Shown here piece by piece: positions 12,890 to 19,444 of a DNA stretch of 64,000 nucleotides. Position 1 is the stretch's first letter. Every line of letters begins with the position of its first letter. This stretch comes from an uncultured Elioraea sp. (lineage in GTDB: Bacteria > Pseudomonadota > Alphaproteobacteria > Acetobacterales > Acetobacteraceae). Location of the stretch: positions 62,001 through 126,000 of the forward strand of contig CALLUO010000015.1 in NCBI GenBank assembly GCA_938010425.1, read 5' to 3'. The translations under genes and the position numbers were made by a program. The notes beneath the pieces were generated by a model. The model saw only the letters and a list, made by a program, of their open reading frames with translations. It was not told where the DNA came from and searched no databases.

Positions 12890-13684
12890 TCAGTGGCCGA
12901 GGATCTGGCTGAGGAAGGTGCGCAACCGATCGCTGCGGGGGTTGCCGAAGAAGTCCTTCGGCGGTCCCACCTCCACCACTTCGCCGCGATCCATGAACAC
13001 CACGCGGTCGGCGACCGTGCGCGCAAAGCCCATCTCGTGCGTGACCACCACCATGGTCATACCCGATTCGGCGAGCTCGACCATGACGTCGAGCACCTCC
13101 TTAATCATTTCGGGGTCGAGTGCGGAGGTGGGCTCGTCGAACAGCATGATCTTTGGGCGCATGCAAAGAGCGCGTGCGATCGCCACCCTCTGCTGCTGAC
13201 CCCCCGAGAGCTGGCCCGGATATTTCTTCGCCTGTTCGGGGATGCGCACGCGGGTGAGGAACTCCATGGCGAGCTCCTCCGCCTCCTTCTTCGGCATTTT
13301 GCGCACCCAGATCGGCGCTAGTGTGCAATTCTCCAGGATCGTGAGGTGGGGGAACAGGTTGAACGACTGGAACACCATCCCGACCTCGCGGCGGATGGCG
13401 TCGATGTTTCGCAAATCGTCGGTCAGCTTGATCCCATCGACGATGATCTCGCCCTCTTGGTGAGTCTCGAGCCGGTTGATGCAGCGGATCATCGTCGACT
13501 TGCCGGAACCCGAGGGACCGCAGACGACGACGCGCTCGCGTTCGCGCACGGTGAGCGAGACGTCCCGCAGCACGTGCAGCGCGCCGAACCACTTATTCAC
13601 CTTGCGCAGCTCAATCATCGGCTGAGCGTCGGGCTGAACCGCGCTTCGCACTTGCACCTTGCCGAGCTCGACCACCTCAGCCAT
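12890..13684 (-). CDS. aapP: general L-amino-acid ABC transporter, ATP-binding subunit
   Basis: 264 residues. This is the ATPase of a polar/general amino-acid importer, peripheral on the inner membrane. Walker [11 protein letters not shown]-loop [10 protein letters not shown], signature LSGGQQQR, Walker [15 protein letters not shown] and H-loop VTHEMGF are all intact. It is the last gene of a minus-strand operon aapJ(relic)-aapQ-aapM-aapP, 29 bp after aapM. The AapP assignment rests on the two long partner permeases, a feature of the Aap system; the ATPase alone could not be told from GlnQ/HisP. Confidence 0.93.
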
Positions 13685-13713: not shown

Positions 13714-14862
13714 TCACCGCTTGCGCCCTTTGTCGAGCTCGCGCTCCAGGTCCTGGCTGTACTTCGACATCGCGAAGCAGAACACGAAGTAAATTGCGGC
13801 GACGAAGAGGTAAGCCTCCACCCCGAACCCCTGCCAGGCGGGTTCGATGACCGAGGTCTTCGCCGTGTTGAGCAGGTCGAAGATGCCGATGATCAGCACG
13901 AGTGAGGTGTCCTTAAACATACCGATGAAGGTATTGACCAGCGGCGGGATGGAGATCTTGAGCGCCTGCGGCAGAATAATCAGCCCTGTCTTCTGCCAGT
14001 AGGTGAGGCCCAAGGCGTCAGCGGCCTCATATTGGCCCTTCGGGATCGCCTGCAGCCCGCCGCGCACCACCTCCGCGAGATAGGCGCCGGCAAACAGAAT
14101 GATCGCGATTTGCGCGCGCAGAAGCTTGTCGATGTTCATGCCTTCGGGAAGGAAAAGCGGGAACATCACCGAGGCCATGAACAGAAGCGAAATGAGGGGC
14201 ACGCCGCGGATGAGCTCAATGTAGACGACGCAGAGCGCCTTCACCGCAGGCATCGAGGTCTGCCGCCGCCCCAGTGCGACGAGGATGGAGAGTGGGAAGG
14301 CGAACGCGATGCCAAAGGTGGCGAGGATGAGGGTGATGACGAGCCCGCCCCAACGCTCCTGTTCAACAGCGGGAAGGCCGAACACGCCACCCCACATCAG
14401 CACGCCAATCACACTCAACGCGACCAGCCAGATCAGCGCGAGCTCCTTGCGCCAGAAGCGGCGCATCGCGGAGATGACATAGAGTGCGACGAAGATGACG
14501 ACGACAAGTGCAGGCCGCCATTGCTCGTCGAACGGATAAAGCCCGAACAAGATGAAGCGATACTTCTCGCCGATCAAAGCCCAGCACGCGCCTTCGCCGC
14601 GTGCAGCACGGCAGGCTGAGGTATCGACCTGCTGGCCTGTTCCCGGCACGTCCCAAATCGCGTTCACCACCGCCCAGTTGACGAAAGAAAGCGTCCAGGA
14701 AACCAGGACGTAGGCGAGCGCGAGCGTGACCGCTGTGGAGAGCCAGGAGGAGAACAGGTTGGCGCGCAGCCAGGCGATGGGGCCGATGGCAAAGCTTGGC
14801 CGCCGCCGGTCGATGGCGGATGCAGAGCCCAAGGTGGCAGCTTCGGCCGAGGGCGGCGTCAT
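13714..14862 (-). CDS. aapM: general L-amino-acid ABC transporter, permease AapM
   Basis: 382 residues, which is AapM length and much longer than common His/Gln permeases. It has an extended N-terminal part with a periplasmic loop containing CRAARGEGACWALIGEKYRF, typical of AapM/BztC, then the BPD_transp_1 core with the EAA loop GQYEAADALGLTYWQ. It pairs with AapQ in the inner membrane. It lies 28 bp downstream of aapQ and 29 bp upstream of aapP in the same operon. Confidence 0.93.
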   Translation of the reverse strand: MTPPSAEAATLGSASAIDRRRPSFAIGPIAWLRANLFSSWLSTAVTLALAYVLVSWTLSFVNWAVVNAIWDVPGTGQQVDTSACRAARGEGACWALIGEKYRFILFGLYPFDEQWRPALVVVIFVALYVISAMRRFWRKELALIWLVALSVIGVLMWGGVFGLPAVEQERWGGLVITLILATFGIAFAFPLSILVALGRRQTSMPAVKALCVVYIELIRGVPLISLLFMASVMFPLFLPEGMNIDKLLRAQIAIILFAGAYLAEVVRGGLQAIPKGQYEAADALGLTYWQKTGLIILPQALKISIPPLVNTFIGMFKDTSLVLIIGIFDLLNTAKTSVIEPAWQGFGVEAYLFVAAIYFVFCFAMSKYSQDLERELDKGRKR

Positions 14863-14890: not shown

Positions 14891-16096
14891 TCACCGTTCT
14901 TTCAGCGCCATGCGCGCATTGTACCAATTCATGAACAGGCTGATGGTGAGCGAGATTGTCAGGTACACCATCATGATGATGGCGATGCCCTCGATCGCCT
15001 GACCGGTCTGGTTGATCGTCGTGTTCGCGATCGAGACGATGTCTTGGTAGCCGATGGCGACGGCGAGCGAGGAGTTCTTGGTGATGTTCAGATACTGGCT
15101 CGTCATCGGCGGAATGATGACGCGCAGGGCCTGGGGCAGGATAACGAGGCGGAGTTGCTGGCCGCGGGTAAGGCCGAGGGCGGCGGCTGCTTCCCACTGC
15201 CCCTGATGCACGGCAAGGATCCCCGCGCGCACGATTTCGGCGATGAAAGCCGCAGTATAAAGGACAAGCCCGAACAGAAGGGCGGCAAATTCGGGCGTAA
15301 TGGTGCCACCGCCACGGAAGTTGAAGCCCCTGAGAACGGGGCGATTGATCGCAAACGGCGCGCCCATCGCCCACCAAGCGCCGACGGGCAGCCCCACCAG
15401 CAGCACAATGGCCCAGGGCCAGAGGCGTGGCCGAACCCCGGTCGCCATCTGCCGGGCGGTGAACAGGCGCGACAAGCCCCAGGTGGCGACCGCACCAACA
15501 CTGAGGGCAAGCAGCGCTGCGCTGTGCGCGTCCTGCCACTCGATCCAAGGGAAGTTGATGCCGCGGTTGGAGAGATAGACCGATCCGAAGAGGTTGAGTG
15601 CTTGGCGCGGCCCGGGCAAACCCTGCAGCAGCGCGTACCAGAACAGGAGCTGCAGAAGCAGCGGCAAATCGCGTAGCACTTCGACATAGACGGCGGCGCA
15701 TTTCGCCACCAACCAATTCTTTGACAGCCGCGCGATGCCGACGATGGTTCCGAGGATCGTGGCGAGCACAGCACCGATGATTGCCACACGAAGAGTGTTC
15801 AGGACACCGACGGTCAGGGCTCGAAAGTAGGTGTCGGCCGGCGAATAGGGGATCAGGCTCTCGCCGATAGGCAGCCCCGCTTCGCGCTGGAGAAAGCCGA
15901 AGCCGGTGGCGATCTTGCGCACCTCAAGGTTGCGCATGGTGTTTTCGACCAGCCACCACGCGCCGAGCCCAACGAGGCCCAAAATGACCACCTGCCAGAA
16001 GATCGCGCGCAAAGTCGGGTCGCGCCAGGAAAGCGCCAAACCGCGTCGCGGCGGGGCGCGGAGGAAGCGGGGATCAGAGGTGGTTGGTGTTTGCAT
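14891..16096 (-). CDS. aapQ: general L-amino-acid ABC transporter, permease AapQ
   Basis: 401 residues, the usual AapQ length. The N-terminal helix (about 33-53) is followed by the family hallmark FGFLQREAGLPIGESL and the transport core with GQWEAAAALGLTRGQ as EAA loop. AapQ and AapM form the channel heterodimer. Unlike in intact aapJQMP operons, the gene upstream encodes only a broken binding protein, so the transporter has no obvious local substrate-binding subunit. Confidence 0.93.
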   Translation of the reverse strand: MQTPTTSDPRFLRAPPRRGLALSWRDPTLRAIFWQVVILGLVGLGAWWLVENTMRNLEVRKIATGFGFLQREAGLPIGESLIPYSPADTYFRALTVGVLNTLRVAIIGAVLATILGTIVGIARLSKNWLVAKCAAVYVEVLRDLPLLLQLLFWYALLQGLPGPRQALNLFGSVYLSNRGINFPWIEWQDAHSAALLALSVGAVATWGLSRLFTARQMATGVRPRLWPWAIVLLVGLPVGAWWAMGAPFAINRPVLRGFNFRGGGTITPEFAALLFGLVLYTAAFIAEIVRAGILAVHQGQWEAAAALGLTRGQQLRLVILPQALRVIIPPMTSQYLNITKNSSLAVAIGYQDIVSIANTTINQTGQAIEGIAIIMMVYLTISLTISLFMNWYNARMALKER

Positions 16097-16162: not shown

Positions 16163-16840
16163 TCAGCGGATTGGCGGTGCGTCCATCAGCCCGCCTTTCG
16201 TCCACAGCGCGGTGCTTCCCTGCGGCACGCCCAGCAGAGTGATGGTGTATTCCCACATGTCTGCGACGTTCCCAACCAGCTTGATGATGTTGGAGGCCAA
16301 GCGGTTGTCGAGCCCCATCATCTGCCCAATGCCGTCCGACAGCCCGTGCAGGCGCTGGATGTCGGGCACCTTATTCGTCAGCATCTGATCGACGTTCTGC
16401 TAGCCACACCGCGCTTCTCCGCCGTGATTTGCGCGAAGAGCGCGTCGCACACGATGTCGAAGAAGCGCTGATTTGCCTTGCGCACGACGGGGCCGAGCGG
16501 CTCTTTCGAGATGATCTCGAGCAGCATCACGGACTGCTCGGCTTTCAGCTTCTCAGGAAAGCGGAAGGAGGCGAGCGAGGACGCATTGTTGGTGGCGACG
16601 TCGGACCGGCCCGAGGTAAAGGCGGCGCGCGTCTCCTTCAAGCTCTCGCTCACCACCGGGCGGAAGTTTATCCGGTTGGTGCAGAAATCCTTGGCGAGGG
16701 CGCGCTCCCTTGCGGTGCTCGACTGCACGCAGGCAGTCGCGCCATCGCGCTCTTTGGCCGAACTGACACCGGGCGAGCGTCTCACCCTCAAGGTGTGGCC
16801 GTCGTAGACCTTGATCCCGGCGCACCGGAACCGGAGCGAG
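16163..16840 (-). pseudogene. aapJ: remnant of the AapJ amino-acid-binding protein gene
   Basis: The minus strand encodes AapJ-like sequence in two frames. One frame, read downward from about 16818, gives IKVYDGHTLRVRR, VCVQ-like CVQSSTA and LEIISKEPLGPVVR, and ends at a TGA at 16378-16380. The other frame gives NVDQMLTNKVPDIQRL and ends with ALWTKGGLMDAPPIR, the standard AapJ C-terminus. A one-base shift near 16399-16400 joins them (AGC-AG-AACGTC where a CAG codon would be expected). Roughly the first 130 residues, including the signal peptide, are not recognisable. proA begins at 17091, leaving too little room for a full 5' end. Many core positions are also diverged, so this is an old, non-functional copy. 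Confidence 0.85.
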
Positions 16841-17090
16841 GCTTCGCACGCGATCGCCTTTGCTGCGGGCAAGGCGACGGCCAGTGCAAGGGCATCGGAG
16901 CATAGAGCCGTGTGTATGGAACCCTCGTCCGCAGGTCGTTCGTGCCGCACTGGCGTGTGCTGGGCTTCCGGTTGCGCTCTCTCGCCAGCCATTGCCATAC
17001 CGTTAAGCAGATTTGCGTGTCGATCAATGGTCGTGGCCCTAGGTCGGGAGGACCGTTCCGACGCTGGCGACGCTGCGGTAAAGTTGCAGG

Positions 17091-18389
17091 ATGCCTGCTC
17101 TGGTTAACTCCGCTTCCGACGTCCGGCCGCAAGCTGATGCCAAGAGCGAGTTTTCGGCCCTTGCCGCGGCGGCCAGAGAGGCTGCGCGCATCGTCTGTCG
17201 CTTGCCGGCAGAAACACGGGCCATCGCGCTGCGGGCGGCGGCCTGCGCACTCCGTCGTGCCGCGCCCACCATCCTTGCGGCGAACTTGGCCGATGTCGCG
17301 GCGGCGCGTGAGGCCGGGCAAGGCAGCGCCTTCCTCGACCGCCTTGCGCTCAATGACGACCGGATCGAGGCGATGGCGGCCGGGGTAGAGGCGGTCGCTG
17401 CTCTCCCCGACCCTGTCGGGCGTGTGTTGGCCGAATGGACGCGCCCTAACGGGTTGCGCATCCGCCGCGTCGCGCAACCGCTCGGTGTGATCGGGATGAT
17501 CTTCGAAAGCCGCCCCAACGTGGCAGCGGACGCGGCGGCCATCGCGCTGAAATCCGGCAACGCCATCATCTTGCGCGGCGGGTCGGAAAGCCTGGGCACC
17601 GTTCGCGCTATCCACGCCGCCTTCGTCGCCGGGCTTGCAGAGGCCGGGGTGGCGGAGGCCGCCGTACAGGTCGCACCGACGGCGGACAGGGGTTTCGTCG
17701 CCGCCATGCTCGGCGCATCAGGCCTCATCGACGTGATCATTCCCCGTGGCGGCAAGTCGCTCGTCGCACGCGTGCAGGCTGAAGCGCGCGTGCCGGTGCT
17801 CGCCCATGCCGAGGGGCTTTGCCACACCTTTGTGCATGCCTCAGCCGATCTCTCCCGCGCCCGCGCAATCGTCGTGAACGCGAAGATGCGACGCCCCGGC
17901 ATCTGTGGCGCGACCGAAACACTGCTCGTCGATGCCGCTTGCGCCGCTACGCACCTCAACCCCATTCTCGACGATCTCGCCGCCCTCGGCTGCGCCTTCC
18001 GCGCCTGCGCGCGTGCGCGCATGTTGCGCCCTGACCTTCCGGCGGCGACAGACCAGGACTTCGCCACGGAGTGGCTGGATGCTATCCTCAACGTTGCAAT
18101 CGTCGACGGGGTGGAGGGGGCGATTGCGCATATTCGCCGCTTCGGCTCCGAACATACGGACGCCATTATCGCTGAGGACCATAAGGCGGTCGAAACGTTC
18201 CTGAATGGCATCGACAGCGCGATCGCCATCGCCAACGCCTCAACCCAGTTCGCCGATGGGGGCGAGTTCGGTTTCGGTGCCGAGATCGGCATCGCCACGG
18301 GCCGCATTCATGCCCGCGGGCCGATCGGCCCCGACCAGCTTGTCACCTTCCGCTATCACGTGATTGGGACGGGCCAGGTTCGCGCATGA
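17091..18389 (+). CDS. proA: gamma-glutamyl phosphate reductase
   Basis: 432 residues. Second enzyme of proline synthesis: NADPH-dependent reduction of gamma-glutamyl phosphate to glutamate semialdehyde. It has an aldehyde-dehydrogenase-like fold with the FESRPNV motif, the [12 protein letters not shown] cofactor region, and the catalytic Cys in [15 protein letters not shown]. proB is not adjacent; upstream lies the aapJ relic instead, which suggests a rearrangement at this junction. The stop overlaps the ATG of the nadD-rsfS gene. Confidence 0.95.
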
Positions 18390-19444
18390 GCGTGACGCGC
18401 CGCGGCCGCTCGCGCCGGCCCGCTTTGCCCGCCAAGCCGGGAGCACCGGGGAAGTGGGGCGACGGGCGGCGCGTGCGCATCGGCCTCCTCGGTGGTTCCT
18501 TTAACCCTGCGCATCAGGGGCATCGCGCGATCGCCGAGATGGCGCTGAAACGTCTCGGTCTCGACTCAGTCTGGCTGGTCGTCTCCCCGGGCAATCCGCT
18601 CAAGCCGGCGCGCGGCATGGCGCGGTTCGACCGTCGGCTTGCCTCGGCGTGCGAGGTCGCCGCGGGCAATTCGCGCATTCTTGCCACCGATCTCGAGCTC
18701 CGTCTCGGCACCCGCTACACGTTCGACACGATCCGCCAGCTGCAGGCGCGTTTTCCCCGCGCCTGGTTCGTGTGGCTGATGGGAGCGGACAACTTGATCC
18801 AGATCCCGCGGTGGCAGTGTTGGCGCCGTATCTTCCGCCTCGTTCCCGTCTGCGTCTTTCCGCGCCCGGGCTTCACGCGGGCTGCCCTTGTGTCGCGCGC
18901 AGCGCGCCTGTTCCGGTCGCGCTTCGTTCCGCCTGCGCGCGCAGGCGCCCTCCGCTTCGCCCCGGCCCCTGCCTGGACGCTCTTGCCCATGCGCGAGCAC
19001 CCTATTTCGGCCACCGCTATCCGCCAAGGCCGGGCAGCGGTGTCGCGATCCCGGAGCCGTCGTGCAGCCACCCTGCCGCAGGCAGCGCTCGACGCCCTGG
19101 TCAAGCGCATCGTCGCCCGCCTCGAGGACGACAAGGCGGAAGACGTCGTCGTGCTCGACATTGTCGGCAAGGCCGCCTTCGCCGACCGGATGGTGATTGC
19201 CTCTGGGCTATCGGGGCGGCAGTTGAAAGCGATGGCCGAGCATCTGCTTGATTTGCTTGAGGCGGAGGGGCATCGGGTGCGGGCTGAGGGCTTGGCCAGT
19301 TCAGATTGGGTGCTGCTGGATGCGGGCGACGTCGTGATCCACCTCTTTCGCCCCGAGACACGCGCCCACTACGCGCTCGAGAAGATGTGGGGGATGAGCC
19401 TGCCTGGAGACGAGATCCGGCCGGGCGACGTGCGCAGGGCGTGA
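18386..19444 (+). CDS. nadD-rsfS: NadD-RsfS fusion: nicotinate-nucleotide adenylyltransferase with ribosomal silencing factor
   Basis: A single 352-residue frame joins two normally separate proteins. Residues about 29-220 are NadD, which makes deamido-NAD from NaMN and [14 protein letters not shown] at 36-46 and the ISATAIR motif near its end. Residues about 230-352 are a complete RsfS, the ribosome-binding factor that blocks subunit joining in stationary phase: [38 protein letters not shown] and YALEKMW. The linker is short and Arg/Ser-rich (SRSRSRRAA). No stop separates the parts. An in-frame GTG at 19040 could in principle start a separate RsfS, so internal initiation is not excluded. ATGA overlap with proA and GTGA overlap with rlmH. 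Confidence 0.88.

Follow-up and report, generated by a model that had tools for sequence, protein, structure and literature searches.

An aap-type amino-acid importer cluster of Elioraea with a decayed linked binding-protein gene and a probable unlinked partner

In the portions of the literature considered here, not every binding protein is tied to an importer encoded beside it. In Rhizobium leguminosarum, BraC3 is an orphan binding protein that interacts with the Bra complex, an amino-acid ABC importer (PMC2978685). Several binding proteins of Pseudomonas aeruginosa (DppA1-A5) go with a single importer, DppBCDF, and one of them, DppA5, is encoded away from the operon (PMC4206461). The AapJQMP system of Rhizobium, as far as the same source describes it, has the four parts of the system discussed below: binding protein AapJ, permeases AapQ and AapM and the ATPase AapP (PMC2978685). 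Our literature search gave no paper on the present locus among the matches listed.

The locus lies in a stretch of 64,000 nucleotides (henceforth the window) from contig CALLUO010000015.1 of an uncultured Elioraea sp. Its genome (G000) is a draft of 2.39 Mb in 101 contigs, 88.6% complete. The nearest named relatives of the window AapQ belong to Elioraea, family Acetobacteraceae, and we use "Elioraea" for the seven genomes (G000-G006, G001 being E. thermophila) that AapQ comparison grouped in one genus. The window aapQ is 91-94% identical to the copies of G001, G004 and G005 and 80-81% identical to those of G002, G003 and G006.

Intact importer genes beside a binding-protein pseudogene

The importer genes are all on the reverse strand and all open, as originally predicted, and match the permease and ATPase families: aapQ (permease, 14891..16096, PF00528 E 5.2e-13), aapM (permease, 13714..14862, PF00528 E 3.1e-19) and aapP (ATP-binding subunit, 12890..13684, PF00005 E 2e-38). 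The window thus has the two BPD_transp_1 permeases and the ABC ATPase of an AapJQMP system in an intact cluster; a functional binding-protein gene linked to them is missing, the adjoining aapJ1 being a pseudogene, and an AapJ-type protein is encoded elsewhere in the genome (AapJ2, see below). In three of the other genomes (G002, G003 and G006) there is also a second aap-type system, each with an adjoining binding-protein gene of its own (L182, L183 and G006:C290:9159-10169).

The linked gene, aapJ1 (16163..16917, reverse strand), is homologous along its length to the intact aapJ1 of E. thermophila (L034:4888-5907; L034 is the same contig as G001:C1, with an identical AapJ), the homology being spread over two reading frames (16378-16998 and 16163-16384). 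The change of frame, placed near 16400 in the original prediction, is a 1-bp frameshift between 16398 and 16397 (reverse strand), which appears as a 1-bp gap against E. thermophila in the alignments and as open reading frames in two frames. Further upstream in the gene there is an in-frame deletion of 264 bp in all, with its junction at 16848..16849 (reverse strand) and exact ends that are uncertain: positions 4957-5220 of L034 and the matching stretch of L035, from G004, have no counterpart in the window, and pairwise alignment leaves gaps of 259+5 bp with L034 and of 264 bp with L035. Finally, ATA replaces the ATG start (16915..16917, reverse strand); ATG is found in L034 and in G005 (L176), ATA also in L035. 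The region of the signal peptide is still there, at about 16917-16849, so that the gene has kept its 5' end and lost an internal segment, rather than the 5' third that had been thought missing. Neither of the two pieces was recognised alone in a Pfam scan, and the NCBIfam match to the longer one was weak (40 bits against a cut-off of 256.35).

Rates of substitution (dN/dS by Nei-Gojobori, all against E. thermophila) set this gene apart from its neighbours. The two pieces of the window aapJ1 gave 0.50 (172 codons) and 0.49 (73 codons), and the importer genes of the window 0.06 (aapQ), 0.06 (aapM) and 0.02 (aapP). Over three genomes aapQ ranged from 0.05 to 0.08 and aapJ2 from 0.06 to 0.07, and proA gave 0.13. 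In G000, then, linked aapJ1 has evolved under little constraint while the importer genes stayed constrained. With a frame disabled where the orthologue is intact, and with relaxed selection, aapJ1 of the window is a real pseudogene. Given a draft in 101 contigs, one might ascribe its lesions to errors of assembly. This is scarcely credible, since a dN/dS of about 0.5 reflects scattered non-synonymous changes beyond what a few errors would leave, and since aapJ1 is also broken, by other lesions, in the separate genome G004 (dN/dS of the pieces there 0.27 and 0.37). The G005 gene, at 0.14, stands at about twice the value of aapJ2, and may be mildly relaxed too.

Across the seven genomes, aapJ1 is intact in one (G001), open over its visible part in one (G005), broken in two (G000 and G004) and absent from three (G002, G003 and G006). 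Both visible pieces of the G005 gene are open; the gene is divided between two contigs, and 41 of its codons are not visible. The lesions of G000 and G004 differ, except for the common ATA; both trees described below place G000 with G005, which has ATG, so either this change occurred in parallel or the placement is wrong. Where aapJ1 is absent, proA and aapQ are 217 bp (G002), 214 bp (G003) and 199 bp (G006) apart, and no J1 was found elsewhere in these three genomes among the matches listed. Counted on the gene trees, on which the number depends, aapJ1 has been lost at least three times within the genus (in G000, in G004 and in the group of G002, G003 and G006), the displaced copy being kept.

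An unlinked AapJ and the tandem order of a neighbouring genus

A genome search for other aapJ-like genes, as the original prediction had proposed, did find one: an intact AapJ2 of 339 aa with a PF00497 match, on contig 20 (G000:C20:31142-32158). Its gene was found in six of the seven Elioraea at 87-100% identity and with no stops, the sole miss being G002, which is 75% complete. In all six it adjoins c9, a gene of the nucleoside 2-deoxyribosyltransferase family, beyond which c17 (no Pfam match) was detected in three. Intact, conserved and not beside importer permease genes, aapJ2 answers to the description of an orphan binding-protein gene. The closest sequence of solved structure to AapJ2 is 4z9n chain A, a periplasmic amino-acid-binding protein (E 1.6e-121 over residues 27-339). 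The PF00497 search of the G000 assembly listed just one gene besides aapJ2, a family-3 binding-protein gene (G000:C55:4484-5143, L001) that lies beside ATPase and permease genes and contains an in-frame TAA close to the end of its contig; aapJ2 may thus be the sole intact gene of this family in G000.

The origin of the two copies is indicated by the closest genus outside Elioraea in our sample. A comparison of AapQ over 150 genomes of the family placed genus g62 (G067 and G146) first after Elioraea (78-79%), followed by the next at 73%. The order in G067 is c17-c9-aapJ2-aapJ1-aapQ-aapM-aapP, and this order recurs in G146, where c9 and aapJ2 are about 2.5 kb apart. A third aapJ-like gene lies just beyond c17 in G146 (L206 16147-17112) and groups with Ferrovibrio copies in the 55-row tree. 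An aapJ tandem also precedes aapQ in G072 (L208), in the order J1-J2, opposite to that of G067.

We built trees from a collection of 114 distinct AapJ proteins, from which hits of <250 residues and frames with a stop had been excluded. One tree had 91 rows (the 114 minus 24 near-duplicates, mostly Achromobacter and Sinorhizobium/Ensifer, plus the G005 partial sequence) and the other 55 (38 of the 114, together with 15 further copies retrieved for it, the partial G005 sequence and the window remnant's 5' piece); in the latter one G146 row fell among the outgroup, so that its rooting is approximate. In the 55-row tree, the upstream tandem copies of G067 and G146 join the unlinked J2 of Elioraea (97/92) and the downstream tandem copies join the linked J1, window remnant included (99/97). 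The 5' piece of the remnant groups with Elioraea aapJ1 at 100/99, on a long branch and covering 44% of the columns. The 91-row tree contains two family-wide clades, J1 being firm (100/99) and J2 weaker (94/80); in the 55-row tree, too, J2 has weak support at its base (82/37). G009, G011, G017 and G022, four genomes from other genera, show the reverse of Elioraea in the 91-row tree: their linked gene belongs to the J2 kind, their unlinked one to the J1 kind.

Orthology of AapJ2 to a gene encoded within the cluster of G067 and G146, its conservation and the constraint on aapQMP together suggest that AapQMP most likely works with AapJ2. The original prediction left two options, a transporter that borrows another binding protein or one that is inactive. 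The first is borne out in so far as an intact AapJ2 exists on another contig, and its orthologue stands beside aapJ1 in G067 and G146. The second, in which aapQMP would themselves be becoming pseudogenes, draws on the dead linked gene and on the in-frame TAA of the contig-55 gene, but we consider it improbable: aapQ, aapM and aapP are open and, against the same relative, show a dN/dS of 0.02-0.06 where aapJ1 shows about 0.5, a strong purifying selection that argues against inactivity, and aapQ has been kept where aapJ1 is gone (G002, G003 and G006).

The proA junction and the rearrangement in Elioraea

Divergent from the aap cluster is proA (17091..18389, forward strand; NF001221 533.1 bits against a cut-off of 289), followed by a fused gene of 352 aa in which nadD and an rsfS-like part share a single frame (18386..19444, forward strand; NF000843 262.3 bits, cut-off 240, residues 24-223; TIGR00090 103.1 bits, cut-off 56.9, residues 239-335). 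The latter gene adjoins proA also in L034, L035 and L184, and because the L034 and L035 copies align over nearly their whole length the fusion seems common to the genus.

According to the original prediction, proA begins in place of the remainder of aapJ, which suggested a breakpoint between the two genes; on this view, as we read it, a recent break truncated aapJ. The broken gene does adjoin proA, and proB is not the neighbour of proA. In E. thermophila, however, an intact aapJ1 (364 aa, or 339 aa from an inner ATG) lies at the same junction between divergent proA and aapQ, and the starts of proA and aapJ lie nearly equally far apart (160 bp, against 173 bp in the window). The corresponding stretch is intergenic there, as 16918-17090 is in the window. 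An aapJ that looks functional, in this arrangement and in a relative, is a finding by which the original prediction was to be refuted; it rules out truncation of aapJ by proA, and the window gene, for its part, has its 5' end and an internal loss. A recent breakpoint is therefore very improbable. What remains of that claim is that the junction is a rearrangement point, but one that is genus-wide and older than the decay of aapJ.

The intergenic stretch contains a putative element in a promoter-like position (17003..17031, reverse strand), defined by a motif of 29 positions. All seven Elioraea have the motif in the spacer that separates proA from the aap cluster, at 65-78 bp from the end next to proA, with or without aapJ1; the pattern was built from these seven sequences, which fit it with 0-3 mismatches by construction, so that the observation is their common place. 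Among the loci searched, the only other match at <=5 mismatches was at L041 4737, upstream of a linked aapJ (from about 4841) in another member of the Acetobacteraceae. From its position, the element may serve proA, aapQMP or both. By eye, a loosely similar stretch can be seen in G067 between aapJ2 and aapJ1.

Separation of proA from proB, also noted in the original prediction, holds in so far as no proB scored above the family cut-off in the G000 assembly; at 88.6% completeness this absence may be a gap. In 8 of the 12 non-Elioraea genomes in which our searches found both genes they adjoin each other, and in the Elioraea with both they are on different contigs in 5/5 and neighbours in 0/5. 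Instead, proA is divergent from aapJ1 (G000, G001, G004 and G005) or from aapQ (G002, G003 and G006). In G006, aapJ2 is convergent with proB, 82 bp apart, and obg follows. In G001, G004 and G005, aapJ2 and proB occupy separate contigs and have other neighbours, and in G003 they are near the ends of two contigs. The G003 DNA after aapJ2 and before proB (L172 8780-10740 and L197 1-444) is unlike that of G006 and reaches the contig ends. On our own reading the two pieces may be parts of one transposase or other mobile DNA; a Pfam scan of them gave no match, and G003 consequently counts neither for nor against the aapJ2/proB junction.

That the aapJ2/aapJ1 pair was cut is well supported. The proA/aapJ1 and aapJ2/proB junctions are the two expected from a single two-break exchange, and it is likely, with one junction of the second kind seen directly (G006), that the cut was reciprocal with one between proB and proA. 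The competing account would have aapJ2 and aapJ1 split by transposition of c9-aapJ2 or in several steps. It gains from the tandem-order genus, where proB and proA are already apart (at 872 kb and 2247 kb in G067, on different contigs in G146) and proA has other neighbours than in Elioraea; the proB/proA split may thus predate the aapJ2/aapJ1 cut or be independent of it. Moreover, the gene order around these loci differs in large part from that of Elioraea. On the other side, four gene ends are reciprocally paired in Elioraea (proA/aapJ1 divergent, and aapJ2/proB convergent in G006), and obg-proB in G006 and proA-nadD in Elioraea have been kept as in the outgroups. We regard the competing account as a serious contender, if the less probable one. 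Contig joins are limited by the draft and metagenome assemblies. We rejected a simple inversion of the stretch of 70 kb that separates aap from proA in G067: apart from aap and its c9, from proA by itself and from isolated genes here and there, the compared stretches of G067 and Elioraea do not match. A repeat scan around the junction returned one imperfect two-copy repeat, which may be due to chance. The aapJ/proA junction, then, is genus-wide and was made between aapJ2/aapJ1 and, probably, proB/proA, before the window aapJ decayed.

A possible history and its parallels in described systems

Our preferred history, to which we give a probability of roughly three in four as a whole, is one of a tandem split by a two-break rearrangement, followed by loss of the redundant linked copy, with AapQMP served by AapJ2. 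The ancestor would have had c17-c9 and then the tandem aapJ2-aapJ1 before aapQ-aapM-aapP. On the stem of Elioraea, a two-break rearrangement would have cut aapJ2/aapJ1 and proB/proA, and rejoining would have left aapJ1QMP divergent from proA and c9-aapJ2 convergent with proB; we infer cut and rejoining as one event. Both binding proteins could then have served AapQMP, AapJ2 from its new place, which would have made the linked copy redundant, decaying in G000 and G004 and gone from G002, G003 and G006. In the window genome, the importer would remain active in amino-acid uptake, and AapJ2, encoded elsewhere, is presumed to dock on AapQMP as its periplasmic binding protein. One could go further and propose that separate control of aapJ2 led selection to remove the linked copy repeatedly, making the uncoupling advantageous rather than merely tolerated; we think this unlikely.

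Annotation by gene neighbourhood would call this importer dead or devoid of a binding protein. From the comparison one can see to what place the partner gene moved and which member of the tandem has persisted. The genus also forms a small series of natural stages, from two copies retained to a decaying and then a missing linked copy, in which one can study why such genes part from their importers.

Set against the described systems, within the parts of the two accounts considered here, the locus differs from Rhizobium AapJQMP in that its linked aapJ is dead and its intact AapJ comes from a gene on another contig (PMC2978685). AapJ2 resembles BraC3 as an orphan binding protein for an amino-acid ABC complex, a service that in Elioraea we infer (PMC2978685). 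Unlike BraC3, the unlinked gene of Elioraea is a displaced member of a tandem pair whose linked gene has decayed or been lost in five of the seven genomes. The Dpp system differs in being a peptide importer, and decay of a linked gene was not met in the part of the Dpp account considered (PMC4206461). With BraC3 and DppA5 as precedents, an unlinked binding protein serving an importer is of a known kind, of which Elioraea would be a new case.
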